Program-made: the position numbers and the translations under genes | Assembly: GCF_019599145.1 (NCBI RefSeq) | Contig: NZ_CP080647.1 | Location: 9,300,001-9,364,000 of the forward strand | DNA from: Streptomyces akebiae | Lineage (GTDB): Bacteria; Actinomycetota; Actinomycetes; Streptomycetales; Streptomycetaceae | Length of the DNA: 64,000 nt | Direction of reading: 5' to 3' | Shown here: in pieces, positions 5,963 through 58,118 of the stretch | Layout: each line of letters opens with the position of its first letter | How positions within the stretch are numbered: position 1 is the stretch's first letter | The notes under the pieces: generated by a model | Told to the model about the DNA's origin: nothing | The model's database searches: none | The model's input: the letters and a program-made list of their open reading frames with translations, nothing else

Positions 5963-5994
5963 CGCGGACGCAGCGGACGAAAGGGAACACGCAC

Positions 5995-6996: not shown

Positions 6997-7061
6997 CCCG
7001 CCAGGCGTCATCGGCCCGCAACGCGTCACGAGAATCGTCGACATGAAAGGTACGTGCTGAC

Positions 7062-8330: not shown

Positions 8331-8399
8331 TCGCCCGTGCCGGTCGCGATGGCGGCGGCACCGGGACGGCAGCCGTGACAGCGGCGCCCGCAGGCCGAA

Positions 8400-8429
8400 C
8401 GCCGCCACCGTCCGACGACGGTGGCGGCG
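8400..8429. terminator. Strong hairpin between convergent genes
   Basis: A perfect 13-bp stem (8400-8412 with 8417-8429) and a CGAC loop lie 70 bases after the aminotransferase stop and 31 bases beyond the stop of the convergent aldo/keto reductase. It has no U-tract, which is common for streptomycete terminators. It probably ends transcription from both sides and marks the right boundary of the peptide cluster. Confidence 0.7.
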
Positions 8430-8460
8430 ACTGCGACTGAGGCGACTGCGGCTGCGACCG

Positions 8461-9453: not shown

Positions 9454-9650
9454 GGACTGCACGCTAGTCGCGTGGAGTGCGCTCTAGGCAAGCCGCGACT
9501 CGCGTTCCACACCGCAGTGACACATCCCTGACGAGCAACCAGCACACTCCCGCTGACGCCGGCCCGGGAGACCGTCGTCGGCCCGGACGGCAAGGCCCCG
9601 GCAACCAGATGGAAGGCTGCTGTCTTCATACGCGTTCGTAGGATCTCGGC

Positions 9651-10187
9651 ATGTCCGATGCCTTCACGGTCCTGTGGACCCACGACACGTGCCGTGCCCT
9701 GCGCGGGGCGGGACGCGAGGGCGAGCGCCCGCCCGTCGCGTTCAGCGGTGTCCATTCCTCGCTCCCCGCCTGGTCGGGCGCCCACCCCGGGGACGAGGTG
9801 TACGCGCTGCACGTGAACCGGGGCGAGGTGCTGCTGGTGAGCCGGATGCGCGTGGTCGACAGGGAGCGGCGCGACTGCTGCGGCACCGCTCCGGCGACAT
9901 GGCGGGACCCGGGGTTCCCCGGACACCACGACTGGGCGGCGCTCGGCGCGGGCGGCTGCGGTGCCGAGGCCGTCCACGTGGACGCCACACCGGTGCGCTT
10001 CGACCTGCCGGTACCCGGCGACCTCCTCGGACGACTGACCTGGCGCAACCGCCGAGGAGGGACCAGGGGCCTGAAGTACGTGGTGGACGGACGCCTGCAG
10101 CGCGTGGTCAGCCTCCAGGGGTTCTACCGCCTCACGCCCGAGTCGGCGGACGACCTCGCGGAGGTTCTCGGCAGCGCCGCCCTCTGA
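9651..10187 (+). CDS. Conserved hypothetical protein, 178 aa
   Basis: Good streptomycete codon structure throughout and a plausible ATG at 9651. I do not recognise a family. A stretch near residues 44-70 (HPGDEVYALHVNRGEVLLVSR) resembles the beta-strand pattern of PUA/EVE-type small-ligand folds, but only weakly. There is no signal peptide or membrane segment. Four cysteines and several histidines are scattered without an obvious metal site. It is a single gene, converging on the monooxygenase-like gene across a short hairpin. Confidence 0.7.
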   Translation: MSDAFTVLWTHDTCRALRGAGREGERPPVAFSGVHSSLPAWSGAHPGDEVYALHVNRGEVLLVSRMRVVDRERRDCCGTAPATWRDPGFPGHHDWAALGAGGCGAEAVHVDATPVRFDLPVPGDLLGRLTWRNRRGGTRGLKYVVDGRLQRVVSLQGFYRLTPESADDLAEVLGSAAL

Positions 10188-10204
10188 CCCCGCCCGAGGG
10201 TCAG
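10184..10204. terminator. Short bidirectional hairpin spanning two stop codons
   Basis: CTGACCC (10184-10190) pairs with GGGTCAG (10198-10204) over a 7-base loop. The stem includes the stop codon of the plus-strand gene and the last codons of the convergent minus-strand gene, so it could end both transcripts. It is short, so confidence is moderate. Confidence 0.45.
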
Positions 10205-10581
10205 CCCGCCGTCGGGCCCTCGGAAACCTCCGCTCGTGTGAAGCCGCTGCTCCGCTCCACTTTCGCCACATGCAGTGTGTAGCTCCGGTACCACTCGGCT
10301 CGCCCACGCTTCTGCGCCGCGCGGTGTTCGAGGTCGGTGCGCCACTGCGTCAGCGCGTCGGCGTCACGGAAGTAACTGACCGTGATGCCCAGCCCGCCGG
10401 GGGTCTGCGCATGGTCCATCCCCAGGTAGCCGGGGATGTCCTTCACCAGGTCCTCCATGCGCGCGTTCGTCTCGGCGTAGCCGTCCTGCTCCTGGGTGCG
10501 CACCGTGGTGAACACAGCTACGTAGTAAGGGGGTTCATGGGCCTCGACGGGTGCGACGGCCGCTTCCGAGTGATCGCTCAT
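10201..10581 (-). CDS. Antibiotic-biosynthesis-monooxygenase (ABM) fold protein
   Basis: 126 residues with the pattern of a dimeric alpha+beta barrel of the ABM/YgiN type: a first strand (YYVAVFTTVR), a helix (YAETNARMEDLVKDIPGYLG), then ITVSYFRDADALTQWRTDLEH, which is the typical second half with the conserved Trp. Members include heme-degrading enzymes, quinol monooxygenases and stress proteins, and no specific substrate can be read here. Its ATG overlaps the stop of the upstream AraC-type fragment by four bases (ATGA), so the two are or were translationally coupled. Confidence 0.82.
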   Translation of the reverse strand: MSDHSEAAVAPVEAHEPPYYVAVFTTVRTQEQDGYAETNARMEDLVKDIPGYLGMDHAQTPGGLGITVSYFRDADALTQWRTDLEHRAAQKRGRAEWYRSYTLHVAKVERSSGFTRAEVSEGPTAG

Positions 10582-11012
10582 GTCGCTACCGTACGGCGGG
10601 ACGCACTCCCCGCGTGCCCCTCACGGAAGCTTGGGCTCCGTAGGTCCGTCCGGGCCGCCTCCCTGGCCACCTGGACGGTGCGGAAGCCTCTGCGGTAGGC
10701 CGACGGCGAGGTGTGCATGATCTTGGTGGAGTGGTGGCGGTAGGTCACCGGTGACGCGAAGCCGACGGCGGCCGAGACCTCCTCCACGGAGGCCTGTGAG
10801 GTCTCCAGCAGCGGCAGGCTCGCCCGGACCCGCTGCGAGATCAGCCAGCGGATCGGTGAGATGCCCTGGCTCCGCGCGAAGTGACGCAGATAGCCGCGCT
10901 CGGACATCCGTGCCTCGCGGGCCGGCGTGCTCACCGTGATCGGCCCGCCCAGGTTCTTCAGCGCCCAGGCCATGCTCCGCGAGAGCCCGTCGTCCTCGGG
11001 CGGCGCCGCCAC
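10578..11012 (-). pseudogene. AraC/GlxA-type transcription regulator, N-terminally truncated
   Basis: The 144 residues cover essentially only the AraC DNA-binding region: two helix-turn-helix motifs (MSERGYLRHFARSQG and VEEVSAAVGFASPVTYRHH), the second carrying Thr-Tyr-Arg-His where most family members have a Phe-x-Arg pattern. GlxA/FtrA-type regulators have about 180 further N-terminal residues forming a DJ-1/PfpI-like sensor domain, and nothing like it is readable in any frame upstream; instead the sequence runs into a fragment of a different gene (cysN). The start at 11012 has no clear ribosome-binding site. It may be a remnant or may still express a sensor-less DNA-binding protein. It overlaps the ABM gene by four bases. 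Confidence 0.65.
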
Positions 11013-11062
11013 CGACGGAGGTGGCCGGGGCCACCGGAAGAGGCCCCGGGGCCCGGAGCGTC

Positions 11063-11376
11063 GAGGCGACCGTCTGTCACGTCGCCGACCAGCCGCTCAC
11101 CGTCGGCCGGCGCGCCCTGCTCAAGCACACCACCCGACGGTCAGGGCGATCGTCGAGGAGATCCCGTCGCGGCTCACTCTCGACGCCCTCGCGCAGCACC
11201 CCGCCCCCGGCAGACCGGTCGCCGACGACATCGGCCGCGTCAGGATCCGCACCGCCGAACCGGTCGCTCTCGACTCCTGCGCCGACTCCCGCCGCACCGG
11301 CTCCTTACTCCTCATCGCCCGGTCCGACGGCTCGACGTTCGCGGCCGGCATGGCGGACCCGCGCTGGCCGGACCGC
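11063..11376 (+). pseudogene. Fragment of sulfate adenylyltransferase large subunit (cysN-like), frameshifted
   Basis: Two adjoining frames together read like the C-terminal beta-barrel domain of CysN, the GTPase subunit of ATP sulfurylase. The first (11063 to about 11135) gives EATVCHVADQPLTVGRR and LLKHTT; the frame then shifts and the second gives VRAIVEEIPSRLTLDALAQH, DIGRVRIRTAEPVALDS and ADSRRTGSLLLI, ending near GSTFAAGM, where CysN normally ends. The whole GTPase part is missing. The shift lies in CACCACCCGACGGTCAGG near 11135-11150. This is a decayed remnant on the strand opposite the AraC fragment it abuts. Confidence 0.72.
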
Positions 11377-11445
11377 CCGGCTCGGCAGGCGCGACGGGAC
11401 GTCTCGACGGGCGCCGGTACGACCCAGGCGAGTGCCGTGCACCCG

Positions 11446-11823
11446 TCAGACGTCGAAGCGACGGCAGGCTGCCTCGATGTGACCGAGGTACTGGTGGGTC
11501 CAGTCGCACATGCCATCGACCGTGGCTCGCAGAGCGCGGCCCGGCTCGGTGAGGGTGTACTCCACCCGCGGCGGCACGGTGGGGTGCACCCTCCGCTCGA
11601 CCAGTCCGTAGCGCTCCAGCATGCGCAGGTTCTGGGTGAGCATCTTGTGGCTGATGCCCTCGACCTCGTTGCGCAACTCACTGAAGCGCAGGGTGCGTTC
11701 TCCGAGCCCCTCGATGATCAGGAGCGCCCACTTGTTGGCGACGTCCGAGAAGATCTCTCGCGCCAGCGAGTCGGCGCGCCTCAGGTCCGCGTCTTCGGGC
11801 GAGCCCGTGTACTGCTTGGCCAC
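11446..11823 (-). CDS. HxlR/MarR-like winged-helix regulator
   Basis: 125 residues with the HxlR family layout: WALLIIEGLGERTLRFSELRNEVEGISHKMLTQ split across the recognition helices, then LERYGLVERRVHPTVPPRVEYTLTEPGRAL forming the wing. HxlR proteins are dimeric one-component regulators that often respond to aldehydes, quinones or disulfide stress and often control a divergent redox gene. Here the divergent neighbour is an exonuclease, so the target is unclear. No cysteine occupies the usual N-terminal sensing position; the only Cys residues are near the C-terminus. Confidence 0.9.
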   Translation of the reverse strand: MAKQYTGSPEDADLRRADSLAREIFSDVANKWALLIIEGLGERTLRFSELRNEVEGISHKMLTQNLRMLERYGLVERRVHPTVPPRVEYTLTEPGRALRATVDGMCDWTHQYLGHIEAACRRFDV

Positions 11824-46130: not shown

Positions 46131-47885
46131 TCACCCTTGGGGGACGGGCGGCCGGGCCACCGTGGCGAGGAGCGAGGCCGTGAAGGCGTGCCGCGGGGCG
46201 GTGAGGAGCCGCCGGGCGGGGCCCTGCTCGACGATCTCCCCCGCGTCCATGACGGCGATGCGATGGGCGACCGAGGCGGTCTCCAGGTCGTGGGTGATCA
46301 GGACCAGCGCCGGTGCGGCGGGGGCTGTTCCGGCGTCCTCGCCGGCGCCGAGCAGGCCCGTGAGGACGTCGAGGATGCCGCGCCGGCTGACGGTGTCCAG
46401 GCCCGAGGTGATCTCGTCGCAGATCAGGACGCGGGGGTGGGCGAGGAGCGCGCGTGCCAGGGCCGCGCGCTGGAGTTCGCCGCCCGACAGCTGGGCGGGG
46501 AGCCGGTGTGCCAGTTCCGGCAGGAGGCCCAGGCGGGTCAGGGTCGCCAGCGCCTCGGTCTCGGCGGTCCCGGCGTCGACTCCGCGCAGCCGGACCGCCG
46601 TGCGGGCGACCTGCCGCAGGACCGGGCGGTGCTCGTCGAACGCGGCGCGTGCGTCCTGGAAGACGTACTGCACGGCCGCCAACTCCCCCCGGGTGCGGTC
46701 GCGCAGGCTGCGGGGCAGCGGCGTGCCGTCGAGAAGGACCTCGCCGTCGTGGTCGCGGTGAAGTCCCGCGAGGCAGCGGGCCAGAGTGGTCTTGCCGCTG
46801 CCCGAGCGGCCGACGACAGCCAGCAACTGCCCCGCGCTCAGGTCGAGTTCGTGGGCGCGCACGGTCACCGTGGCATCGCGTGAGCCGTCGCGGTGGCGGG
46901 CGACGAGGTCACGTACGCGCAGCACCGGTCGGTCACGGCGCGTGGTCGCGGTTCGCTCGCGCTCGCCGCGCGTGGTCGCCGTTCGCTCGCCCGAGCCCGT
47001 CGTCGTCCCCGAGGCCGCTCTCGCGCCTGTCCGCGTTCCCCTCTCACGTCCTGCCCCCTCGTCCGTGGCGCCAGGGTCGGTGAGCGAATGTTCGGTGAGC
47101 GAAACCTGGGCGGCCAGAAGCCGACGGGTCCATTCGTGCCGGGGCGCCGACCAGACGTGCTGTGTCGGTCCCGACTCCACGACACGCCCCGCCCGCATGA
47201 CATGGACCTCGTCGGCGAGCGAGCGGACGACGTCGAGGTCGTGGCTGAGCAGGACGATCGCGATGCCGCGCGCCGCGATCGTCGCGAGCTGTGCGACGAC
47301 GAGGCTCTTGGTCAGCGCGTCCTGGCCGGTGGTGGGCTCGTCGGCGACGACGACCCGGGCGCCGAGCAGGAGGGCCTGGGCGAGGACCACGCGTTGCTGC
47401 TGACCGCCGGAGAGCTGGTGCGGATGGCGGCGCAACAGGGTCTCGGCGTCCGGGAGTCGGGCGTCGGCCAGCGCTCGGAGCACCTGGGCCCGAGCGGCTG
47501 CCCTGCGCAGGCCGCGCGGCAGATGACGTACCCGTGGGCGGGCGATGTCGGTCAGCAGGGCGCCGATCCGGCGGGCGGGGTTGAGGACGGAGGCCGGATG
47601 CTGGGGCACGTACCCGACGAGGCCCGCGGGCCCGCCGAGCCCCTCGGCCGCCAACCGGACCTCGCCGGTGACGCGTGCGCCCACCGGGAACTCGCCGAGC
47701 AGCGCCAGCCCGGTGGTCGTCTTCCCGCTGCCCGACGCACCCACCAGCGCGGTGACCCTGCCGGGCAGCACCCGCAGACTCACCCCGTCGACGATCGCCC
47801 GCCCGCCCACCTCGACCCGAAGGTCCGTGAGTTCGGCGAGGGGTTCCGGGGCGGCCGTGCCGCTCTCGTCGTCGTACCGCGTCAC
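46131..47885 (-). CDS. Fused double-ATPase of an oligopeptide/nickel-type ABC importer
   Basis: 584 residues from the GTG at 47885, which overlaps the upstream permease stop by four bases (GTGA). Two complete ABC domains (DppD-DppF type) are joined: the first with GASGSGKTTT, VPQHPASVLNPAR, LSGGQQQRVVLAQAL and VVADEPTTGQD; the second with GRSGSGKTT, LSGGELQRAALARAL and LICDEITSGLD. A low-complexity linker rich in Arg, Thr and Gly joins them. It powers uptake through the two permeases upstream and is the last gene of the ten-gene, apparently Zur-controlled unit. The likely cargo is the metal complex of the metabolite made by the upstream genes. Confidence 0.93.
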   Translation of the reverse strand: MTRYDDESGTAAPEPLAELTDLRVEVGGRAIVDGVSLRVLPGRVTALVGASGSGKTTTGLALLGEFPVGARVTGEVRLAAEGLGGPAGLVGYVPQHPASVLNPARRIGALLTDIARPRVRHLPRGLRRAAARAQVLRALADARLPDAETLLRRHPHQLSGGQQQRVVLAQALLLGARVVVADEPTTGQDALTKSLVVAQLATIAARGIAIVLLSHDLDVVRSLADEVHVMRAGRVVESGPTQHVWSAPRHEWTRRLLAAQVSLTEHSLTDPGATDEGAGRERGTRTGARAASGTTTGSGERTATTRGERERTATTRRDRPVLRVRDLVARHRDGSRDATVTVRAHELDLSAGQLLAVVGRSGSGKTTLARCLAGLHRDHDGEVLLDGTPLPRSLRDRTRGELAAVQYVFQDARAAFDEHRPVLRQVARTAVRLRGVDAGTAETEALATLTRLGLLPELAHRLPAQLSGGELQRAALARALLAHPRVLICDEITSGLDTVSRRGILDVLTGLLGAGEDAGTAPAAPALVLITHDLETASVAHRIAVMDAGEIVEQGPARRLLTAPRHAFTASLLATVARPPVPQG

Positions 47886-48808
47886 GAACGTCGTTCCTTC
47901 CGTGCCTGTCGGCCACCGGTCCGGCTGATCCTGGTGATCCGGCTGGGCCCACCGTGCCCACCGCGCCCGCCGGGCTTCTCCAGCGCCGCGTCGAAGAGGA
48001 GGTTCGTGCCCGTGGTGAGCGCGACGATCAGCAGGGCGGGGACGACCACGGCCCAGGGCTGCACGAACAGGCCCGTGCGGTTGCGGTCGACCATCACCGC
48101 CCAGTCGGCGGCGTCCGGGGTCACGCCGACGCCGAGGAAGGCCGCAGTGGCGACCAGGTACAGCACCCCGGTCAGCCGGGTGCCGGCATCGGCGCCGAGG
48201 GTGCGCAGGATCGTCCGGCCGACATAGCCGACGGCCGTGCGCCACCAGCTCTCGCCCTGGAGACGGAGCGCCTCGACGACCGGACGGGCGGCGGCCTCCG
48301 TGGCGGCGGCGCGCACGAGGCGCGCCGCGTCGGGCACGTTGACCAGCGCGACGAGCAGGGCGAGACCGACGGCTCCGGTGGTGAGGACCGACGCGACCAG
48401 CAGGATCAGCAGCAGCGACGGGACGGCGATCAGGATGTCCAGCGGACGCATCAGCAGTTCCTCCAGCCAACGCCGGTGCGTCAGCGCGGCGACGAGACCG
48501 ACCGGCAGGGCGACGAGATAGGCCAGCGCTCCGGCGCCGAGCGCGGTCAGCACGACCGGCCGCCCGCCGTGGAGCACCTGCTGCCATACGTCCCGGCCCA
48601 CGAAGTCCGTGCCGAGCCAGTGCCCGTCGCCGAGCGTGAAGGAGGGCGCCCGTGTGCTCGGTTCCCCTGCGAACACCGGTCCCAGCAGGGCGAGGACGAG
48701 GGGGACGGCGATGACCGCGAGGCCGAGCGCGAAACGGCCCGTGGGCCGACGCCGGGTGCGCGGGACGGCAGCAGTGCCGGGCGGGTCGACGTCCGTGGCC
48801 GCAGTCAC
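47882..48808 (-). CDS. ABC importer permease, DppC/NikC type
   Basis: 308 residues from a GTG overlapping the previous permease stop (GTGA). About six membrane segments (ALGLAVIAVPLVLALLGPVF, ALAYLVALPVGLVAALT, LLLILLVASVLTTGAVG) and the permease loop EALRLQGESWWRTAVGYVGR are present. DGHWLGTDFVGRDVWQQVLHG near the N-terminus is the classic DppC opening. It pairs with the DppB-type permease. Confidence 0.93.
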   Translation of the reverse strand: MTAATDVDPPGTAAVPRTRRRPTGRFALGLAVIAVPLVLALLGPVFAGEPSTRAPSFTLGDGHWLGTDFVGRDVWQQVLHGGRPVVLTALGAGALAYLVALPVGLVAALTHRRWLEELLMRPLDILIAVPSLLLILLVASVLTTGAVGLALLVALVNVPDAARLVRAAATEAAARPVVEALRLQGESWWRTAVGYVGRTILRTLGADAGTRLTGVLYLVATAAFLGVGVTPDAADWAVMVDRNRTGLFVQPWAVVVPALLIVALTTGTNLLFDAALEKPGGRGGHGGPSRITRISRTGGRQARKERRS

Positions 48809-49851
48809 GCCGCCACCCCCGCCCGGGGCGCCAGCCGTCGGGCGACCACGTCCGCGCCCAGGTTGAGCACGACAGTCAGGACGCCGAAGACCACGGCGAG
48901 CCCCTGGACGACGGGGACATCGCGTTCGGCGACGGCGTTGAGGAGGACGGTGCCGAGTCCGGGGATCACGAAGAGGGCCTCCACGACGATGACACCGCAC
49001 AGCAACCAGTCGATGGTGCGGGCGAGTTGCTGGGCGGCGGGGGCGAGGGCGTTCGGGAGGGCGTGGGCGTAGCGGACGCGGGCGCCGGAAACGCCGTACC
49101 GCCGGGCGTGGGCGACGTACGGGGAGGCGAGGGCGTCGATCATGCCGGCCCGGACCAGCCGGACGAGGGAGCACACGGGACGGGAGAGCAGGACGAGGAC
49201 GGGCAGGACGAGGGCGGCCGGGTGGGCGAGGAGGTCGGTGCCGTAGCCGACGGCGGTCGGCGGCAGCCAGCCCAGTTTCAGCGCGAACACGGTCACCAGC
49301 AGGACCCCGAGGGCGAACTCGGGGACCGCGTACACGGCGAGCGTCAGCGAGCTGACGAGGCGGTCGACCGGGCCGCCCTCGTGGCGGGCGGCCAGCACGC
49401 CGAGTCCGAAGCCGAGCGGGACGAGCAGTGCCACGGTGAGTGCGGCGAGCAGCAGGGTCGGCCCGAAGCCGTCGGCGATGTACCGGGCGACCGGGCGGCC
49501 GGAGGTCAGCGAGGTGCCGAAGTCGCCGTGCAGCAGACCCGTCGCCCAGTCGGCCAGCCGTTCGTGCACCGGCCGGTCGAGGTGCATCGCCTCACGGATG
49601 GCGGCGATGCGCGCCGGGTCGGGCTGGTCGCCGGCCAGCGCGACCGCGGCGTCGCCCGGCAGCGCCTCGGTGAGCGCGAAGACCAGCAGCACGACGGCCA
49701 CGGTCTGCGCGACACCGAGGAGCAGCCGCCGCACGACGAAGGCGGACGCTCCCCGGGAGGCGCTGCGGCGGATCGTCGTGCGGATCCGGCCCCGCCGAGG
49801 CCGTTCGTCCGGTTCCCCACGCCCCGCCGGGACGCTCTGAGCGGGTGTCAC
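48805..49851 (-). CDS. ABC importer permease, DppB/NikB type
   Basis: 348 residues from a GTG overlapping the binding-protein stop (GTGA). N-terminal RRLLLGVAQTVAVVLLVFAL, then PGDAAVALAGDQPDPARIAA and the loop YVAHARRYGVSGARVRYAHALPN split across the EAA motif; the C-terminus has VEALFVIPGLGTVLLNAV. It is a standard DppB-family member. A basic N-terminal stretch of about 40 residues is slightly longer than usual. Confidence 0.93.
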   Translation of the reverse strand: MTPAQSVPAGRGEPDERPRRGRIRTTIRRSASRGASAFVVRRLLLGVAQTVAVVLLVFALTEALPGDAAVALAGDQPDPARIAAIREAMHLDRPVHERLADWATGLLHGDFGTSLTSGRPVARYIADGFGPTLLLAALTVALLVPLGFGLGVLAARHEGGPVDRLVSSLTLAVYAVPEFALGVLLVTVFALKLGWLPPTAVGYGTDLLAHPAALVLPVLVLLSRPVCSLVRLVRAGMIDALASPYVAHARRYGVSGARVRYAHALPNALAPAAQQLARTIDWLLCGVIVVEALFVIPGLGTVLLNAVAERDVPVVQGLAVVFGVLTVVLNLGADVVARRLAPRAGVAA

Positions 49852-51434
49852 GTGAGCCACACCTTGTCGAAGCGTGCCCAGTCGAGCGTGTTGGCGGGGG
49901 CCTTGGTCTCCACTCCCTTCACCGTCTTGGCCGTTCCGAGGATCCAGTCGGCGAACCCCCAGATCAGGAAGCCGCCTTCGGTGTACAGCCGGCGCTGCAT
50001 CCGCTCGTAGACGGCGGCTCGCTGTGCCTTGTCCCGCGTCGACTGGGCCTGCTGGTAGAGGGCGTCGAAGTCCTTGTGCTGCCACTTGGTGGCGTTGGTG
50101 GTGGAGTCGGTGAGCAGCCGCTGCGAGATGTGGGCCTCGATGGGCATGGCACCTGACCGGTAGCAGGCGAGGGTGCCGGAGTCGAGGATGTCGCTCCAGT
50201 ACGAGTCCTTGCTGCCCATCCGCACCTCGACGGTGACGCCCGCCTTCGCGGCCTGGTCCTTGAAGATGCTGGCGGCCTCGGTGAACCCGGCGGCCACGGC
50301 GGAGGTGTCCAGGGTGACCTTCAGCTTCTCCGCGCCGGCCTGCTTCAGCAGGGCCCGGGCCCGGTCGAGGTCCTGCTCGCGCTGCGGGAGGTCGGCGGCG
50401 TAGTACTCGTAGCCCTTGCCGAACAGGTCGTTGCCGACGACGCCCGCGCCGGACAGGGCGCCGTCGACGAGCTCCTGCCGGTCGGCGATCAGGAAGAACG
50501 CCTCCCGGACCCGCTTGTCGTCGAAGGGCGGCCGGTCGGTCTTCATGCAGAACGCCTGCATGGCGCTGCCCCGCAGCCGGACGATCTCGATCTGCCCCTT
50601 GCCCTCGTGGGCGCGGGCGGTGGTGGGGTTGAGCTCGTGGGCGTACTCGACCTGACCGCCGAGGAGCGCGTTGACCCGGGCCGACTCCTCGTTGGCGACG
50701 ACGAACTCGACTTCGTCGAGGTGCGGCGCGCCCTCCCAGTAGGCGTCGTAGCGGCGGAACACGGCCGAGCGGCCGGGGGAGAAGGAGACGAAGCGGAAGG
50801 GTCCGGAGCCGATCGGCTTCCTGTCGAAGTCGGCGGCGTTCCTCCCGGCGTTCTCCGGCACGATGTACGCGCCGAACGCGGCCAGCACGTTGGGGAATTC
50901 CGCGGTCGGCCGCTTCAGCACGAACTCGATGCCCCGTTCACCGGTGGCCCGGCTCGCGTCGAGGTCGATGGGCTCCAGGGACGCCTTCGCGCGGAACGCC
51001 TTCTCGGGGTCGGCGATCCGGCGGTAGCTGTAGAGGACGTCCTTGGCGGTGACGGGCGAGCCGTCGTGGAAGGTGGCCTCGCGCAGGGTGACCTGCCAGC
51101 GGTCCAGGGTCTTGTTCGGCTCCCACTTGGCGGCCAGGCGGGGGCGCGCCGACAGATCGGCGCCGTAGTCGGCGAGCTTGTCGTAGAGGGCCTTGGCGCG
51201 GGCGACGTCGGCGAACAGGTTGGCCAGGTGCGGGTCGAGGGTCTCGCTCGCGCCGCCGCCCGCGAACGCGGCGCGCAGCCGTCCGCCCCGCTTGGGGGTC
51301 CCGTCGTCGCCGCTCGCCCCGGGGTCGGTGCCGTCCGCGCCGCACGCGGTCAGGGCGAGCGCGCCGAGGGTGGCGGCGCCCGTGGCGGCGAGGAAGCCGC
51401 GTCGGCGCAGACCGGGGAAACGTTCGTCGTGCAT
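49848..51434 (-). CDS. Extracellular solute-binding lipoprotein, family 5 (DppA/NikA/CntA-like)
   Basis: 528 residues. The signal combines a twin-arginine motif (LRRRGFLAATGAATLG) with a lipobox (LTAC). SBP_bac_5 blocks are complete: ETLDPHLANLFADVARAKAL, WEPNKTLDRWQVTLREATFH, DGSPVTAKDVLYSYRRIADP, RPPFDDKRVREAFFLI. Members bind peptides, nickel-His complexes or metallophores. AAGGA lies before the ATG, 62 bases after the methyltransferase stop, the only real gap in the unit. Placement behind biosynthesis and export genes suggests it captures the metal-loaded product. Confidence 0.93.
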   Translation of the reverse strand: MHDERFPGLRRRGFLAATGAATLGALALTACGADGTDPGASGDDGTPKRGGRLRAAFAGGGASETLDPHLANLFADVARAKALYDKLADYGADLSARPRLAAKWEPNKTLDRWQVTLREATFHDGSPVTAKDVLYSYRRIADPEKAFRAKASLEPIDLDASRATGERGIEFVLKRPTAEFPNVLAAFGAYIVPENAGRNAADFDRKPIGSGPFRFVSFSPGRSAVFRRYDAYWEGAPHLDEVEFVVANEESARVNALLGGQVEYAHELNPTTARAHEGKGQIEIVRLRGSAMQAFCMKTDRPPFDDKRVREAFFLIADRQELVDGALSGAGVVGNDLFGKGYEYYAADLPQREQDLDRARALLKQAGAEKLKVTLDTSAVAAGFTEAASIFKDQAAKAGVTVEVRMGSKDSYWSDILDSGTLACYRSGAMPIEAHISQRLLTDSTTNATKWQHKDFDALYQQAQSTRDKAQRAAVYERMQRRLYTEGGFLIWGFADWILGTAKTVKGVETKAPANTLDWARFDKVWLT

Positions 51435-51496
51435 GAGGGTTCCTTGGGTTCGGTGGGAAGCGGGATCGTGGGGGTGGAGGGATCAGGGGGGAGGGA

Positions 51497-52288
51497 TCAG
51501 GGGGTGGAGGCGAGGCGCGCGACGACGTGCAGACGGTCCGCGTCCGCCGTTCGGCCGGGCAACCGGCCCTCCCGCCACGGCGGTTCGGTGCGCGGGCCCG
51601 GCCCGTCGTGCAGTTCGAGCACCTCGAAGCCGCGTGCGGTCAGGAGGTGGCGCAGCTCCTGCGGGAACAACAACCGCCAGGCGGACCGCTGTTCGACGGG
51701 GGGAGCGCCGTCGTCCGAGGTCCAGACCCGGGTGCGGCGCAGCAGTTGGGCCGTGCGGTCCACGGTGAGGGTGGTGGTGGACCGGTAGGCGGTGCCCTGC
51801 CAGGTGAAGGCGTTGACGGCCGGGGTGCCGAGCAGGTCGGTACGGCCCAGGAAGTAGGCGCCGTTGCGCATCTCGGCGACCAGCAGTCCGCCGGGTGCCA
51901 TTGCCCGGCGGCAGGAGGAGAGGAAGCCGTCGAGCTGGTCGTTGGTGTGGCAGTACAGCGGGGAGCTGTCCAGGCAGACGACCGCGTCGAAGGCCGCCCG
52001 GCCCAGGTCGAAGCCGTGCAGATCGGCCCGTACGTACGCCGGACCGGGATACCGGGCGCGGGCGTGGGCGAGCATTGCCTCGGAGAGGTCGGCGCCGGTC
52101 ACCGTACGGCCGACGTGGTGCAGGTGGGCGGCGTCGCGTCCGGTGCCGCAACCCATGTCCAGGACCCGCGGTCCGGCCCCGTGGCGCCGCAGACAGTCCT
52201 CGGCCCAGCGTCCGGCCAGTCGTCCGGGATCGGGGAAGCGGGCCTCGTACAGCTCAGGATTGTCGGTGAGGAGGTTGGCGTTCGTCAT
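51497..52288 (-). CDS. SAM-dependent methyltransferase
   Basis: 263 residues, class I fold: RVLDMGCGTGRDAAHLHHVG (SAM motif I), TGADLSEAMLAHAR, FDAVVCLDSSPLYCHTNDQL (motif IV) and RRAMAPGGLLVAEMRNG. It resembles small-molecule N- or O-methyltransferases rather than rRNA or DNA enzymes. Its ATG overlaps the MFS stop (ATGA), tying it to the exporter and biosynthetic genes, so a tailoring role on the product is likely. The acceptor is unknown. Confidence 0.9.
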   Translation of the reverse strand: MTNANLLTDNPELYEARFPDPGRLAGRWAEDCLRRHGAGPRVLDMGCGTGRDAAHLHHVGRTVTGADLSEAMLAHARARYPGPAYVRADLHGFDLGRAAFDAVVCLDSSPLYCHTNDQLDGFLSSCRRAMAPGGLLVAEMRNGAYFLGRTDLLGTPAVNAFTWQGTAYRSTTTLTVDRTAQLLRRTRVWTSDDGAPPVEQRSAWRLLFPQELRHLLTARGFEVLELHDGPGPRTEPPWREGRLPGRTADADRLHVVARLASTP

Positions 52289-53547
52289 GCGCTGCTCCTC
52301 TCACCCGCCGTGGCGGGAACCACGGCTTCGGGGTTCGGGGGCAGCGCCCCCGACCGGTGCAGCCGACGGACACCGGCCGCCGACACCAGACCGAACAGGG
52401 CACAGCACACCCACGGCAGCCACGCGTGACCGCCGCGCTCCCCGGTGTCCATGGCCCACCCGACGACGGTGTTGCCGACGGCGGCCGCGACGCCGGAGAC
52501 GACGTAGAAGATCCCGAAGTACGTGCCGGTCAGTTCCGGTCGGCCGAAGCGTGGGATCAGCTCCATGACGAACGGCGAGGCCACCATGAGACCGAGGTAG
52601 AGGAGCAGCGCGCCGAGGAGGACGGGGACGGCGGCGCTCCAGCCGGAGGCGCCGAGCGCGGTTCCCATGGCGGGCGGCAGGAAGGCCAGACCGGTCAGGG
52701 CGAGTCCCACACTGATCCAACGGGCCCTGTCGCCACGTGACTTGAGCGTTTTGGTGATGCGCAGCTGAAGCGCGAGGTTGGCGAGCGTACCGACGAGGAA
52801 GACGAGACCGGCGGACCCGTCCCAGCCGGTCGCCTCCCGGGCCCCGGCCGGCAGCAGCAGATACAGCTGGTTCTCCAGGGTGAACATGCCGACCATGGCG
52901 AGCGCGAAGGCCAGGAAGGCCCGGTTGCCGAGCACCTCCCGCCAGTCCCCGAGGACACCGCCGCCGCTCGGCTCGACCTTCCGCGCCGGCAGGACGAGGG
53001 CCTGGGCGACGGTGAGGGCGGCGAAGACACCGGCGGCCGTGAGCGCCGACGTACGGAAGTCCACCAGCAGCAGGACACTGCCCAGCAGCGGCCCGATCAG
53101 CGCGCCCGTCGTGGCGAAGACGTTGAACAGTGCGAACGCCTCCGCCTTGCGTTCCCCGGCCTCCTGCGCCAGATACGCCCGCACCGCCGGGTTGAACAGC
53201 GCCCCGGCGAGTCCGCTGAGCACCGACGCGGCGAGCAGTACCGCCAGCCCGTCGCCGAGCGCGAACAGTCCGAACCCGACGGTCCGCAGGGCGCACCCGG
53301 CGATGATGACGCCCCGCGCGCCGAGCCGGTCCGAGGCGGAGCCGCCGATGATGAACAGACCCTGCTGACTGAGGTTGCGGACGCCCAGGACGATGCCGAC
53401 GACGGCCGCCGACATGCCCAGGTTCTCGGTGAGGTGCGTGGCGAGGTAGGGGATCAGCAGGTAGAACCCGATGTTGACGCCGAGTTGGTTGACCAGCAGC
53501 AGGCGGACCGCGAACGGGAAGCGGCGTATCTCATGCCACGTCTGCAC
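52285..53547 (-). CDS. MFS exporter, probable product efflux
   Basis: 420 residues from a GTG, twelve membrane segments. Opening FAVRLLLVNQLGVNIGFYLL and motif A-like GGSASDRLGARGVIIAG place it with DHA1-type efflux pumps; the FNPAVRAYLAQEAGERKAEA loop is typical of the MdtH-like group. Its start lies 17 bases inside the epimerase gene. In staphylopine-type systems the equivalent position is held by the MFS exporter CntE, so export of the finished metallophore is the likely job. Confidence 0.9.
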   Translation of the reverse strand: MQTWHEIRRFPFAVRLLLVNQLGVNIGFYLLIPYLATHLTENLGMSAAVVGIVLGVRNLSQQGLFIIGGSASDRLGARGVIIAGCALRTVGFGLFALGDGLAVLLAASVLSGLAGALFNPAVRAYLAQEAGERKAEAFALFNVFATTGALIGPLLGSVLLLVDFRTSALTAAGVFAALTVAQALVLPARKVEPSGGGVLGDWREVLGNRAFLAFALAMVGMFTLENQLYLLLPAGAREATGWDGSAGLVFLVGTLANLALQLRITKTLKSRGDRARWISVGLALTGLAFLPPAMGTALGASGWSAAVPVLLGALLLYLGLMVASPFVMELIPRFGRPELTGTYFGIFYVVSGVAAAVGNTVVGWAMDTGERGGHAWLPWVCCALFGLVSAAGVRRLHRSGALPPNPEAVVPATAGERSSA

Positions 53548-54616
53548 GGCTTGTCTCCCCCGTCTCGTGGGTCGCGCGGAGCCGAACTCCCAGCCCGGGC
53601 AGGTCGGTCGTCCGTACGACGCCGTCGGTGCCGCCGATGCCGGTCCACGGGTCGTCGGCGAGCAGGAGGTGTCCGTCGAGGTCCACCCAGCGGGCGCGGT
53701 CGGCGAGGTGGACGGCCGGGGCGAGGCCGAGGCTGCTCGCGGTGAGGCAGCCGAGCATCAACTCGGTCCCGGTGCCCTCGATCAGCGCCGCGATCCGCAG
53801 CGCCGCGTGGACACCGCCGCACTTGGCGAGCTTGACGTTGACCCCGTGCACCCGTCCCGCCAGCCGCCGGACGTCCTCCAGCCCCACGGCGTCCTCGTCG
53901 GCGACGACCGGCAGCGGAGAGCGCTCGGCCAGGGCGGCCAGCGCCTCCGGGTCTCCCGGGGCGACGGGCTGTTCGACCGCCTCCACGCCCAGCTCCGCGA
54001 AGCGCGGCAGCAGTGCGTCCGCCTGCGCGGGTGTCCAGGCGCCGTTGGGGTCGAGCAGGAGCCGGACCCCGGGTGCGGCGTCGCGGACGGCCCGTACGCG
54101 TGCGACGTCGCTCTCGGGGTCGGGCGCTCCGGCCTTGACCTTGACGACCTCGAAGCCGCTCGCGGCGAGGCGGCGCGCCGCGGCCGCGGCCCGGGCCGGC
54201 GAGGTGATGCCGATGGTCCGGGCGGTCGCGGCCGCCGGCGCGCTCGGCGCACCCAGCAGACGGTGCACCGGGGTCCTGGCCCGCTTGCCGACGAGATCGA
54301 GGAGTGCGGAGTCGACGGCGGCGGTCACGGCCGGGGGAACCTCGGTGGAACCGGACGGTTCGCTGCTCCGCAGGGCCTCCAGGGCGCTCTCCGGATCGGG
54401 GAACGGCCGCAGTCTTGAGGCGGCGTCCATGAGGAGGCGGCCCAGGGTGGCGGCGTCGAGGCCGTAGTAGACGCTGGTGACGGCCTCACCGTGGCCCTGG
54501 AGCCCGTCGTCGTCCTGCACGGTGAGCCACACCGCGTCACGCGCGGACATGATGGAGCGGGAGATGCGCAGCGGCTCGGTGAGTTCGAGGCGTACGGTGC
54601 GCTGGGTTGCCTTCAC
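53531..54616 (-). CDS. Enolase-superfamily enzyme, dipeptide-epimerase-like
   Basis: 361 residues from a GTG overlapping the upstream PLP-enzyme stop (GTGA). The muconate-lactonizing/dipeptide-epimerase core is intact: catalytic lysines in VVKVKAG, metal ligands Asp in LLDPNGAWT, Glu in VEQPVAP and Asp in VVADEDAV, and the opposite lysine in VNVKLAKCGG. The two lysines on opposite faces of the site allow 1,1-proton transfer, that is, epimerisation. Known relatives invert L-Ala-L-Glu and other dipeptides. Together with an ATP-grasp ligase this suggests inversion of an alpha-centre in a ligated product. Confidence 0.9.
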   Translation of the reverse strand: MKATQRTVRLELTEPLRISRSIMSARDAVWLTVQDDDGLQGHGEAVTSVYYGLDAATLGRLLMDAASRLRPFPDPESALEALRSSEPSGSTEVPPAVTAAVDSALLDLVGKRARTPVHRLLGAPSAPAAATARTIGITSPARAAAAARRLAASGFEVVKVKAGAPDPESDVARVRAVRDAAPGVRLLLDPNGAWTPAQADALLPRFAELGVEAVEQPVAPGDPEALAALAERSPLPVVADEDAVGLEDVRRLAGRVHGVNVKLAKCGGVHAALRIAALIEGTGTELMLGCLTASSLGLAPAVHLADRARWVDLDGHLLLADDPWTGIGGTDGVVRTTDLPGLGVRLRATHETGETSRADVA

Positions 54617-55701
54617 AGTCTCTCTTCCGAATGGGGGACCCCGAGTGGGTCGACGACCCTGCCGCACCGCACCCAGCCGACGGCCTCGGCCGCGCGGGGA
54701 TGGGGGATCTCGACGGGCCGCGCGGCGGCGGAGGCCGGGTCGAGGCCGTGGGTGGTGGCGAAGTCGTCGTCGAAGACGCTGCCGAGGTAGCGGTGCGGGC
54801 CGTCCGGGAAGACGGTGGCGACGACGGCGCCCGGGTGGACGCGGGCCGCCCAGGCGGCGACGAGCGCGACCGCGCCGGTGCTCCAGCCGCCGCTGACGAA
54901 GCTGCCGCGGGCGAGCCGGCGACAGCTGTCGACGGCCTCCGCCGGGCCGACCCAGTGCACCTCGTCGAAGGCGTCGTAGGCGACGTTGCGCGGATGGATG
55001 CTGCTGCCGAGGCCGCGCATCAGCCTCGGCCGGGCCGGCTGGCCGAAGATCGTCGACCCGGTGGAGTCGACGCCGATGAGGCGCAGCGCGGGCCAGTGCC
55101 GGCGCAGCGGGCCGATGATGCCCGCGCTGTGGCCGCCGGTGCCGACGCTGCACACCAGGACGTCCAAGTGATCCAGCTGCACGGCGAGTTCGGCGGCGAG
55201 CGAGGCGTAGCCGGCGGTGTTGTCGGGGTTGTTGTACTGATCGGGCCAGTACGCCCCCGGCAGCTCGCCGAGCAGCTCCCGCAGCCGCGCGAGGCGCGCC
55301 GCCTGCCAGCCGCCCCGAGCTGCCGGGCGGTCCACCAGCTCCAGCCGTACGCCGTGCGAGCGCAGCAACTGCCGCATGGACGGCTCCAGTTCGCTGTCAC
55401 CGACCAGCACGACCGGATGGCCGAGGGCCTGCCCGGCGAAGGCGAGCCCGATGCCCAGCGTGCCGGACGTCGACTCCACCACCGGTGCGCCGGGCCGCAG
55501 CTCTCCGCGCTCCCGGGCCCCCAGCACCATGGACACGGCGGCCCGCGCCTTCATCCCGCCCGCCGCGAGCCCTTCCAGCTTGGCCCAGAACCCCGGCTGC
55601 GGACCGGGCAGATCCGCGGTGATGCGCGCCAGCGGTGTCCGTCCGACGAGGGACAGCAGCTCGGGTCGGGCGACGGTACGCAGAACGGTCGACGACGTCA
55701 C
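54613..55701 (-). CDS. PLP-dependent cysteine-synthase-like enzyme
   Basis: 362 residues from a GTG overlapping the DUF4213/DUF364 gene stop (GTGA). Fold type II: opening LLSLVGRTPLARI, PLP lysine in LAAGGMKARAA, phosphate loop ESTSGTLGIGLA, and SVGTGGHSAGIIG. The Lys context departs from the NPxxSxKDR of true cysteine synthases, as in specialised beta-replacement enzymes such as SbnA (which joins O-phosphoserine and glutamate) and DcsD. No SbnB-like dehydrogenase is in the unit, so free diaminopropionate is not the obvious product; formation of a carbon-nitrogen bond on a serine-derived unit is the inference. The C-terminal 60 residues (HRYLGSVFDDDFATTHGLD) resemble actinobacterial homologues. 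Confidence 0.9.
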   Translation of the reverse strand: MTSSTVLRTVARPELLSLVGRTPLARITADLPGPQPGFWAKLEGLAAGGMKARAAVSMVLGARERGELRPGAPVVESTSGTLGIGLAFAGQALGHPVVLVGDSELEPSMRQLLRSHGVRLELVDRPAARGGWQAARLARLRELLGELPGAYWPDQYNNPDNTAGYASLAAELAVQLDHLDVLVCSVGTGGHSAGIIGPLRRHWPALRLIGVDSTGSTIFGQPARPRLMRGLGSSIHPRNVAYDAFDEVHWVGPAEAVDSCRRLARGSFVSGGWSTGAVALVAAWAARVHPGAVVATVFPDGPHRYLGSVFDDDFATTHGLDPASAAARPVEIPHPRAAEAVGWVRCGRVVDPLGVPHSEERL

Positions 55702-56750
55702 CGGCCCACTCCTGGCGCGAGAGCGGCCGTCGTCACGACTGGCGAACCGACCGGCGAACCGGCTGCCGGATCGACTGGTGAACCGGCTGTCGGGCCGGCC
55801 ACCGGATCGGCTGTCCGGCCGCCCGCCGGATCGGCTGTCGGACGGACCGTCGGATCAACTGCCGGGCGGGCCGCCGGATCGACTGCCGGTGCGGAGTGCG
55901 CGTCGTCCCGGCGGTAGCGGTGCAGCGTGCCCGCGCCCGCGTCCAGCCAGAAGAAGGGATACGGCTCCGCGCACACCGCGCTCACGCCGTGCCCGAGGAA
56001 CCGGGGCAGCACCGCACTGCCGGTCTGCGCGAACATCACCAGCTGCTTGCCGTACGACAGAGCGTGTCGCCGCAACGGCTCGAAGGAGCCGTTGCTCAAG
56101 GTCATCCCGGAGACCAGCAGCGCGTCACAGCGCTCGGCAGCGTCGGGCGCATCGGTGACGACCTCCTCGCCCCACTCCGTGATTCCGCCCTTCAGATCGC
56201 ACGGCACATAGCGGAGCCCCTGTGAACGCAGCGCTTCCAGAAGGGAGTTGACGACCCCGACCACCAGCACGATCGCGCCCGGCGGCAGGTCGAGCAGTTC
56301 GACGACGGCCCGCGCCCGGGCCCGCGACTTCTCCAGCGACGTACCGGCCGGGAGGGCGAACGGTCGTGCCCCGTTCTCGGGGGTGTGCGGGCGGACATGC
56401 ATCAGATAGGCGTCCAGCGCGGCCACCCGCACCGGCAGTAGCGGATGGTCCAGGAGCCGGGCGACATCGGCGCCGACACAGTCGTCGATCGCCGCGTCCG
56501 GCAGGGTGCCGGGCTCGACCGCGCAGGACCCCACGGCCCCGGCGAGACGCAGACTGAGCACCTCGTTGCGGTAGCCGGTGCCCCGCCCGTCGTGCCGCAC
56601 GGCCTGCCGGGTCACGAACGCCACCGCGATGCGCAGCGTCGCGGGATCCGGGCCCAGCCGACCGGCCCGGGCCCGCTCCAGCAGCTCTTCGTACGTGACC
56701 GTCGGCTCTTCGTACGTGACCGTCCCGGCCACCGGCGCGACGGCGCTCAC
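55698..56750 (-). CDS. DUF4213/DUF364 protein (Rossmann-like, putative heavy-metal-related domain)
   Basis: 350 residues from a GTG overlapping the ATP-grasp stop (GTGA). Residues ~15-110 match the DUF4213 part (LRIAVAFVTRQAV, GTGYRNEVLSLRLAG); residues ~150-285 the DUF364 Rossmann part (IVLVVGVVNSLLEALRSQG, CDALLVSGMTLSNGSFEPL, KQLVMFAQTGSAVLPRFL). DUF364 was suggested to handle heavy metals from structural and genomic context, but its reaction is unknown. The last ~50 residues form an 8-residue repeat tail (DPAARPAV, DPTVRPTA). Location between the ligase and the PLP enzyme of an apparently Zur-controlled unit makes a biosynthetic or metal-loading role likely. Confidence 0.8.
   Translation of the reverse strand: MSAVAPVAGTVTYEEPTVTYEELLERARAGRLGPDPATLRIAVAFVTRQAVRHDGRGTGYRNEVLSLRLAGAVGSCAVEPGTLPDAAIDDCVGADVARLLDHPLLPVRVAALDAYLMHVRPHTPENGARPFALPAGTSLEKSRARARAVVELLDLPPGAIVLVVGVVNSLLEALRSQGLRYVPCDLKGGITEWGEEVVTDAPDAAERCDALLVSGMTLSNGSFEPLRRHALSYGKQLVMFAQTGSAVLPRFLGHGVSAVCAEPYPFFWLDAGAGTLHRYRRDDAHSAPAVDPAARPAVDPTVRPTADPAGGRTADPVAGPTAGSPVDPAAGSPVGSPVVTTAALAPGVGR
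55785..55880. repeat. Four degenerate 24-bp repeats encoding an 8-residue tail motif
   Basis: Units at 55785-55808, 55809-55832, 55833-55856 and 55857-55880 each end in (A/G/T)CCGGATC or close variants. They encode D-P-x-x-R-P-x-x repeats at the C-terminus of the DUF364 protein. The 24-base period keeps the frame. Confidence 0.85.
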
Positions 56751-58003
56751 CGGATCACCAGCCCGGCGCTCAACTCGCCCAACAGCGCCTCGACATGTCC
56801 GCGCGCGCCCAGCCCGGCCGGGTCGCCCACCATGACATGGCCGAGGTACTCGTTGTTGCTGCCGGCCGACTTGACCTGCCGACCCGGCTCGGCGAGCTGA
56901 ACCTCCAGCACGTTCTCCGCGTCGGCGAGCTCCCCGCCGTCCAGGGCTGCGAGGGTGCCCGAGGTATCCGGGACGAGGAAGCCGACGGCCGCGCTGCGCA
57001 GGCCGGTCTCCCGCCGCCGCAGGTCGGGTTCGCGGCCGAGGGCGACCTCCACGGCGGCCGCGGCGAGGTCGACGCCGGTGACGTGGCGCACCAGTTCGGT
57101 GATGCGGTTCCCGGCGGGCCGTGGGTTCACCTCGACCACACGCGGACCGTCCGGGGTCAGCTTGATCTCGGTGTGGGCGACGACGCCGTCGGTCAGCCCG
57201 AGCGCCTTGAGCGCGCCCAGCGCGGTCTGTTCGGCCGCCTCGGTGTCGGCGCCCGACAGCGCGGCGGGGAACATGTGCCCGGTCTCGATGAAGGCGGGTG
57301 CCCCGCCGATGCTCTTGTCGGTCACGCCCACGACGTGCACCGCTCCCGCGTGGGACACGGTCTCGACGCTCACCTCGAATCCGGTCAGCAGCTCTTCGAG
57401 GAGGACGGCGGGCGCCCGGCGCTGCCCGCGCGCGTTCAGCGGGAAGTCGGCCAACGACCTCACTGCCGAGGCGAGTTCGGTCTCGTCGTCCACTCTCCGC
57501 ACATACATGCCCGCGCACAGGTCGACGGGTTTGACGACCAGCGGATAGCCGATCTCCCGTGCCGCGCGGGCGAGGTCGGCCCACTCCTCGTGGAGGGCGA
57601 AGCGGGGTCCGGGCACTCCGGCGTCGGCGAGGACCCGGCGGGTGGCGTCCTTGCGGCAGGCGTCCGCGACGGCCTGCGGGCCGGGGCCGGGGAGTCCGAG
57701 GTGCCCGGCGATACGGGCCACCGTCGGCAGGTAGTAGTCGCAGGACGAGATCACCCCGTCGAAGCCGAACACCGTGTGCAGGCGTTCCGTCTCCGGCAGG
57801 AGGGTGCCGAGGTCGTTGGTCTCGGCCGTGATCACGTTGCGTGCGCCCAGCAGCGGGTGGGCCGTGCCCTCGGGGGCCGAGCGCAGGTAGTGGTGCAGGT
57901 CGCGGGTGAGGAAGGTGAACTCGTGCCCGCCCTCCCGGATGGCCCGTGGGAGCAGCCTGCTCATCGATCCGACCCAGCTCTCGACCACCAACAGATGAGC
58001 CAC
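56747..58003 (-). CDS. ATP-grasp ligase
   Basis: 418 residues from a GTG (AAGGGGAG about 4 bases upstream). An N-terminal Rossmann-like part (HLLVVESWVGSMSRLLPRAI) precedes the ATP-grasp core: YPLVVKPVDLCAGMYVRRVD (ATP lysine and loop), FEVSVETVSHAGAVHVVGVT, VAHTEIKLT and the metal ligands in VEVNPRPAGNRITEL. The layout is that of amino-acid/dipeptide ligases (carnosine-synthase/BacD-like) that form amides through acyl phosphates. It is the first gene of the unit, directly behind the Zur-box promoter. Confidence 0.92.
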   Translation of the reverse strand: MAHLLVVESWVGSMSRLLPRAIREGGHEFTFLTRDLHHYLRSAPEGTAHPLLGARNVITAETNDLGTLLPETERLHTVFGFDGVISSCDYYLPTVARIAGHLGLPGPGPQAVADACRKDATRRVLADAGVPGPRFALHEEWADLARAAREIGYPLVVKPVDLCAGMYVRRVDDETELASAVRSLADFPLNARGQRRAPAVLLEELLTGFEVSVETVSHAGAVHVVGVTDKSIGGAPAFIETGHMFPAALSGADTEAAEQTALGALKALGLTDGVVAHTEIKLTPDGPRVVEVNPRPAGNRITELVRHVTGVDLAAAAVEVALGREPDLRRRETGLRSAAVGFLVPDTSGTLAALDGGELADAENVLEVQLAEPGRQVKSAGSNNEYLGHVMVGDPAGLGARGHVEALLGELSAGLVIR

Positions 58004-58089
58004 AGCTCCCCTTTTCGTGCGGTGCGTTCAGGCGTCAGGGCAGCCCGACGGCACCTCGACAAGGAGGCGCCCGGCCGCTTGACATGTGC

Positions 58090-58118
58090 ACCTTATCGAT
58101 AATCGTTTTCATTGTCAT
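58090..58118 (-). promoter_or_regulatory. Promoter with a Zur-like box in the spacer
   Basis: On the minus strand, ATGACA (58113-58118) and TAAGGT (58090-58095) form -35 and -10 elements exactly 17 bases apart. Within the spacer, plus-strand bases 58097-58111 read CGATAATCGTTTTCA, 13 of 15 matching the streptomycete Zur consensus TGAAAATCGTTTTCA as I recall it. The AT-rich island is striking in this GC context. It lies about 87 bases before the ATP-grasp start. It does not resemble the actinobacterial DmdR1/IdeR iron box. Zinc-loaded Zur bound here would block RNA polymerase. Confidence 0.75.

Follow-up and report, generated by a model that had tools for sequence, protein, structure and literature searches.

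A run of ten genes on the minus strand of Streptomyces akebiae, read from 58003 to 46131 of the stretch analysed here, is probably a Zur-repressed zincophore operon. The stretch, called the window below, comprises 64,000 nucleotides (C1:9300001-9364000 of the 10.5-Mb assembly; other positions in the same genome are likewise given as C1). Domain and family profile searches of the translated proteins identified, in order, an ATP-grasp ligase, a DUF364 protein, a pyridoxal phosphate (PLP) enzyme resembling SbnA, a dipeptide-epimerase-like enolase, a major facilitator superfamily (MFS) exporter, a methyltransferase and an importer of the ATP-binding cassette (ABC) type. We read this unit as set apart from the staphylopine-type, EDDS and EDHA gene sets; its product, its metal and its response to zinc are predictions. 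A first-pass annotation of the same DNA had proposed the zincophore interpretation, which is supported by the sequence comparisons described here.

The evidence that carries this reading lies upstream of the ligase gene. The annotation had pointed there to a promoter with a Zur-like box, and the box was recovered (Table 1): nowhere else in the window does the sequence come within two mismatches of the family operator, and none of 100 shuffles contained a match. For comparison across genomes we used the best 80 of 581 confirmed genome-contig stretches, all 80 titled Streptomyces and referred to as the named loci. One of them (L118) holds no upstream sequence and was left out. In all of the remaining 79, a site agreeing with AATGAAAATGATTATCGATA at 15 or more of 20 positions lies 5' of the ligase gene, at −63 to −176 and mostly at about −109, and no second site with at least 16 of 20 occurs on either strand of the 1,505,016 bases of the named loci. 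A set of genus loci (L012-L041), which includes the window's own and may share species with the named loci, contained the operator in 29 of 30 cases, the miss (L027) holding only 67 upstream bases. Operator scores in five further genus loci of 20 kb were 20, 19, 18, 16 and, in L053, 15.

Column information within the 20-base site is 0.93-2.00 bits, as compared with 0.02-0.43 bits in columns −40 to −8; columns further downstream, toward the ligase start, reach 1.15 bits. The conserved block has the form aTGACA, 17 bases, TAacGT. From the conservation and the spacing, we infer that the block consists of a −35 and a −10 element with the operator as their spacer, that is, in the position of a repressor site. 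We also considered that the box might reflect mere relatedness of the loci and rejected this, because the flank is low where the site is high, and because the Rhodococcus site has another spelling and another distance.

According to PMC5472717, the site bound by Zur in S. coelicolor reads tGaNNatSatNNtCa, and the znuA motif given earlier for actinobacteria is taaTGaNAANNNTTNtCANta. The window box agrees with the former at nine of 11 specified positions and with the latter, a 21-bp motif, at 13 of 15. The loose 11-position motif alone, with up to two mismatches, has 13 matches in the window against 1.64 expected and is not specific there; the evidential weight falls on the cross-genome footprint. 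Throughout the genome, TGAAAATSATTWTCR gave 25 strand matches at no more than two mismatches, as compared with one for the reversed control. Among them are one site in front of the znuA of a znuA-znuC-znuB-zur run, sites preceding two SBP_bac_5 binding proteins and one (C1:2936774) that falls between convergent genes. The occurrence of a like operator type before the znuABC-zur genes further backs Zur control, as does the position of a Rhodococcus copy of the unit between Zur-boxed zinc genes.

Both Rhodococcus unit boxes match the actinobacterial znuA motif at 14 of 15 positions, with a spelling that differs from that of the Streptomyces box. When 160 gene upstreams from six loci were scored, ten reached 12/15: the six unit promoters, a CobW gene, znuA and two divergent genes whose upstream windows extend into the unit promoter's own intergenic region. 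On the Rhodococcus JS3073 plasmid the unit is flanked on one side by a CobW/COG0523-type gene, its box scoring 15/15, and on the other by a ZnuA gene whose box scores 12/15. CobW adjoins the unit in Streptomyces sp. JJ38 as well, at a locus (L136) with no site of at least 12/15 on the longer znuA motif, yet with the clade operator present; S. nigrescens (L101) has a partial CobW match at the locus edge and L125 a match of 28%. Control by iron was rejected, since the window contains no DmdR-type site at up to five mismatches. The same scan of L006-L011 and L042-L061 returned a site only in L061 (five mismatches, about 800 bases upstream of the ligase).

Several other observations concern Zur-type sites. 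The JS3073 zinc island (L011, 12502-28726) includes, besides CobW, the unit and ZnuA, an ABC ATPase gene and another Zur-like site (27256). In the genome of the window, Zur-type sites at C1:571366 and C1:3086313 (L080, L082) stand before SBP_bac_5 binding proteins with permease genes adjoining. Two more lie at C1:2646000-2665900 (L081), near a Fur-family gene; associated with them are an importer of FecB/FecCD type and a group of YcaO, nitroreductase and S15-peptidase genes together with ABC exporters. This is possibly a second, YcaO-based zinc system.

The gene order and strand that the annotation had claimed were confirmed for all ten genes (Table 1). Seven of the nine junctions are 4-base overlaps (GTGA/ATGA), the enolase and MFS genes overlap by 17 bases, and a gap of 62 bases separates the methyltransferase from the binding protein gene. 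The importer is complete and of DppA/NikA type, as had been stated, with its ATPase encoded by one fused double-ATPase gene, hence the total of ten. Two labels needed revision, and the start of the DUF364 gene was corrected to 56750. Of the DUF4213/DUF364 call, the DUF364 half stands, with 28.2 bits against PF04016 and a gathering cut-off of 23, whereas DUF4213 was not matched in the domain search of the ten proteins. The PLP enzyme, of cysteine synthase fold, is nearest to SbnA, and solved SbnA structures are its top-ranking structural relatives. In the enolase, K159, K161, D189, E215, D240, K262 and D312/D314 are invariant in six of six aligned sequences, and the dipeptide epimerase signature (KxK, D/E/D metal ligands, second Lys and DxD) is present in full; in such enzymes the DxD pair reads the free amine of a dipeptide. 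The domain search of the ten proteins found no nicotianamine synthase (CntL, PF03059), opine dehydrogenase (CntM, PF10100), nonribosomal peptide synthetase (NRPS) module or ornithine cyclodeaminase (OCD)/SbnB-type domain, absences that the annotation had correctly listed, and no lyase or decarboxylase domain.

Table 1. Features of the ten-gene unit and its promoter (positions in the window).
Feature	Position	Strand	Basis
−35-like hexamer ATGACA, putative promoter	58113..58118	-	footprint columns −5 to 0 (−3 and 0 nearly invariant) and 17-base spacing
Zur-type operator TGAAAACGATTATCG	58097..58111	-	spacer between putative −35 and −10; 1.18-2.00 bits/column in 79 loci vs 0.02-0.43 in columns −40 to −8
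−10-like hexamer TAAGGT (TANNNT), putative	58090..58095	-	footprint columns 18-23
ATP-grasp ligase, L-amino-acid-ligase type (ATP-grasp_4, LAL_C2)	56747..58003	-	domain matches; best solved relative L-amino acid ligase BL00235, E 1.6e-30
DUF364 (PF04016) protein, 350 aa	55698..56750	-	domain match; start at 56750 overlaps preceding stop
SbnA-like PLP enzyme, cysteine synthase fold	54613..55701	-	domain/family profiles, solved relatives
Dipeptide-epimerase-like enolase	53531..54616	-	domain/family profiles; alignment to 3jva
MFS exporter (putative transport direction)	52285..53547	-	domain/family profiles
Class I S-adenosylmethionine (SAM)-dependent methyltransferase	51497..52288	-	domain profile; N-methyltransferases among best solved relatives
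SBP_bac_5 binding protein, opine/nickel/peptide type	49848..51434	-	domain profile; best solved relative AgaA 6hlx, E 1e-35
ABC permease B, Dpp/Nik type	48805..49851	-	domain/family profiles
ABC permease C, Dpp/Nik type	47882..48808	-	domain/family profiles
Fused double ABC ATPase, NikD/NikE, CntD/CntF like	46131..47885	-	domain/family profiles

The unit is conserved as a whole. All ten genes are present, in order, in 73 of the 74 named loci that have room for them; the annotation had named a consistent lack of Zur boxes and transporters in homologous units as evidence against it, and this was not found, all 79 assessable loci being boxed. A ligase match was found in 283 plasmid records, of which six were read. 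The ten genes stand in order in the best five of these (from S. angustmyceticus, Streptomyces NBC_01591, Embleya and two Rhodococcus), and the sixth, from Azospirillum, has relatives of the PLP enzyme and the ligase only. A cluster on the latter plasmid (L009, 7982-13780), consisting of a kinase, a cysteine synthase, an ATP-grasp protein, a DMT transporter and an argininosuccinate lyase, is possibly a relative pathway.

Within the genus, 199 genomes were sampled, among them that of the window, and a protein search found the DUF364 protein in 83 of these. Its relatives fall into clade 1, with at least 63% identity to the window protein (52 genomes), and clade 2, with 36-42% (32 genomes); one genome, G012, holds both. 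Of the clade 1 genus loci, five were read over 20 kb, and four of them contain all ten genes. The fifth (L053 of G012, 5896-11525) has the first five, through MFS, and is the exception to the presence of a dedicated exporter together with a dipeptide-type ABC importer. Co-occurrence of both clades in one of 199 genomes compares with 8.4 expected (Fisher p 7e-4, a statistic that ignores phylogeny). This near-exclusion is suggestive of redundancy, and we do not take it as proof; the clade 1 unit of G012 may lean on the clade 2 system of that genome. Across the phylum, a DUF364 match occurred in four of 296 genomes and one of 198 genera, and the protein database lists relatives in Rhodococcus, Saccharopolyspora, Kitasatospora and Actinokineospora.

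For clade 2, we read loci of 14 of the 32 genomes (among L042-L056). Common to all 14 are DUF364, a PLP enzyme and an MFS protein, the last being of one or the other of two types. A GHMP kinase is encoded in ten loci and, in the other four, a SAM-binding-like protein of 255 residues, which has no Pfam match and was named by eye; the two never occur together. The importers are FecBCD-type in 11 loci and Dpp-type in two (L045, L046), the families having been verified on L045 and L049; L043 has only a FecCD fragment at the stretch edge, about 7 kb off. The Zur motif, with no or one mismatch over 11 positions, precedes the cluster in 11 of the 14; none of that quality was found at L047, L052 and L054, the last having a weaker one. 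The common core of the loci read is therefore the PLP enzyme, DUF364 and the Zur box, and we read DUF364, which is consistently associated with the PLP enzyme, as a core enzyme of the system. A profile of 51 DUF364 relatives matches the solved DUF364 structure 3npg (8.5e-6) over profile positions 138-251 only. A role in metal chelation had been proposed for DUF364 from genome context (PMC2954201).

Other relatives of these proteins were noted. A weak DUF364 match of 30% (L057) has, by eye, an NRPS-like neighbourhood. S. scabiei and Streptomyces sp. MA5143a carry a two-gene unit that pairs an MFS exporter with a PLP enzyme sharing 57-58% identity with that of the window (L182, 7588-10040; L185, 5478-7906), and a PLP homologue with 57% identity is encoded at C1:9944741.

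One can envision how the operon would work. When zinc is present, Zn-Zur would occupy the operator, recognised from its conservation between −35 and −10, and presumably block transcription; when zinc is absent, the ten genes would be read as a single unit. SbnA joins O-phosphoserine and glutamate, and by analogy the SbnA-like enzyme may transfer the C3 unit from an activated serine onto an amino acid amine to give an aminopolycarboxylate. The DUF364 protein, as the constant partner of the PLP enzyme, might act on or supply this intermediate. An amino acid would then be attached in amide linkage by the ATP-grasp ligase, a D-centre introduced into the resulting dipeptide-like compound by the epimerase and an N-methyl group added by the methyltransferase, in an order of steps that is our suggestion. 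The ligand would leave through the MFS pump, and its zinc complex would return through the ABC system formed by the binding protein, both permeases and the fused ATPase, as expected of an opine/NikA-type importer. The combination of an SbnA-like PLP enzyme, a ligase of L-amino-acid-ligase type and a dipeptide epimerase with DxD points to an aminopolycarboxyl dipeptide with a D-centre as the likely product. A wider proposal, for and against which we find the case about evenly balanced, is that the loci form a zincophore family on the PLP-DUF364 core, with DUF364 as a metallophore enzyme. On this view, the product of clade 1 would be an aminopolycarboxyl dipeptide that has been epimerised and N-methylated, and clade 2, with its FecBCD- or Dpp-type importers, would reach related compounds by way of either the GHMP kinase or the SAM-binding protein. 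Between them, the two clades would serve roughly 40% of Streptomyces (83/199) as their zinc-scavenging route, and the family would also occur on Rhodococcus plasmids.

Some results weigh against the zincophore operon. We know of no reaction for DUF364. The PLP enzyme, although closest to SbnA, scores 237 bits on the SbnA equivalog model (TIGR03945), under the cut-off of 350, and the window box is off the S. coelicolor Zur motif at two of 11 positions. The single incomplete named locus, L138, has the first four genes only, and L053 combines a weaker box (15/20) with the absence of methyltransferase and importer genes from its 20-kb stretch. In the 16-kb stretches around the two-gene PLP-MFS unit of S. 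scabiei and MA5143a there is no convincing Zur or DmdR site, so such a PLP enzyme is not always zinc-linked. Furthermore, no computed result would separate zinc from other ligand-borne metals. One could envision a Zur-repressed broad metallophore with nickel, cobalt or copper as its main cargo, a case that has been argued for staphylopine. The NikA/opine-like binding protein is in keeping with this scenario, as are related importers that carry Ni or Co complexes. However, the Zur-type site and the znuA and CobW neighbours in one Rhodococcus argue that the deficiency answered is zinc, and we consider the broad-metal scenario unlikely.

Another scenario is that the unit makes an exported peptide-like natural product, an enzyme inhibitor or a signal, that is merely zinc-responsive, with a peptide importer for recycling. 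The ATP-grasp ligase and epimerase fit a modified dipeptide, L053 without importer genes nearby is better accommodated, and the unit is carried by Streptomyces sp. MA5143a (L095), the reported source of L-681,176, an aminopolycarboxyl peptide that inhibits ACE. The presence of the unit in this strain counts for little, since clade 1 occurs in 52 of the 199 sampled Streptomyces; moreover, 73 of the 74 named loci with room for the unit retain importer and Zur box alongside the enzymes, and of the 14 loci read for the separate DUF364 clade, 11 have a Zur box and 11 an importer of a different type. This scenario strikes us as most improbable. A third possibility, that the product is an aminopolycarboxylate metallophore of the EDDS/EDHA family and in essence already described, could appeal to the shared cysteine-synthase-type PLP step and to the Zur control reported for EDDS (PMC6103462). 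The ten proteins, however, have no OCD, lyase or decarboxylase domain, and the EDHA-like locus of S. scabiei is a separate one with DmdR-like rather than Zur sites, which makes this possibility very unlikely.

If the unit is indeed a Zur-repressed zincophore operon, a large share of Streptomyces (the 83 of 199 with DUF364 of either clade) would hold a zinc-scavenging pathway that we did not meet in the literature reached. It would provide the first biochemical setting for DUF364, be a source of novel biodegradable chelators of zinc and allow genomes to be mined by a simple rule: a PLP enzyme, DUF364 and a Zur box. No described pathway with this enzyme set was met among the papers listed by the literature searches, which covered open-access work only.

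Among known systems, those for staphylopine and pseudopaline (cnt) share with the unit an exporter and an opine/nickel-type ABC importer. The staphylopine system also has a racemase-type enzyme and zinc-responsive control, both of which we liken to features of the unit. In place of CntL and CntM, the unit has the ATP-grasp ligase, SbnA-like PLP enzyme, DUF364 protein and methyltransferase; a nicotianamine synthase was likewise not found in the genome of the window, one of 14 control genomes giving a match, and a genome-wide search for opine dehydrogenase returned no match there and none in the controls either. The importers of described opine-like zincophore clusters are dipeptide- or FecCD-type (PMC7438024), and pseudopaline is under Zur control (PMC6103462). 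The unit would work like the opine-like zincophore systems but, judged by its genes, is no member of them.

The gene set for [S,S]-EDDS of Amycolatopsis japonicum has, like the unit, a cysteine-synthase-type PLP step, with OCD and lyase partners. Zur control would be common to both, whereas the unit has a ligase, an epimerase, DUF364 and a dedicated importer and is without the OCD and lyase. The only OCD gene found in the genome of the window lies at C1:2.34 Mb, beside another PLP gene. At C1:2342636-2344559 (L186, L189), this OCD gene directly adjoins an SbnA-like PLP gene and resembles a separate sbnA/sbnB pair.

An EDHA-like siderophore locus in Streptomyces sp. MA5143a and S. scabiei combines, as does the unit, a PLP enzyme with a nearby SBP_bac_5 binding protein. 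It differs from the unit in having TauD-like dioxygenase, OCD, decarboxylase-type and MATE genes (verified in S. scabiei), and two DmdR-like sites in each of the two stretches (L181, L184), with four to five mismatches to the motif. Its position and content suggest that it is the EDHA locus, which PMC8914351 places at scab_5231-5311; MA5143a is the reference strain according to PMC10702961. Identity of the unit with EDHA was rejected, as the EDHA-like locus occurs separately in the same genomes, 8.5 Mb away in S. scabiei. Its PLP enzymes are only 32-35% identical to the window's, its 14-kb stretch in S. scabiei gave no tblastn match to the window's DUF364, ATP-grasp or epimerase proteins, and S. 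scabiei 87.22 and MA5143a carry the DUF364 and PLP genes of the ten-gene unit elsewhere. The metallophore classes recognised by antiSMASH 7 include aminopolycarboxylic and opine-like ones (PMC10320115), and antiSMASH missed EDHA in the S. scabiei analysis (PMC8914351).

In staphyloferrin B biosynthesis (SbnA/SbnB), SbnA is the closest solved relative of the unit's PLP enzyme, which is without an SbnB/OCD partner and a siderophore synthetase. Coelibactin of S. coelicolor, described in PMC6103462 as a Zur-controlled presumed zincophore, resembles the predicted system in its control and its genus but is a putative NRPS product, whereas the unit has no NRPS domain. With the DUF364 family (3npg; Dhaf4260), the unit's protein shares a PF04016 score above the cut-off and a profile match to 3npg, and differs in the constant PLP partner and the Zur control found in the loci read. 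Taken as a whole, the enzyme set differs from those of the described zincophore pathways known to us.

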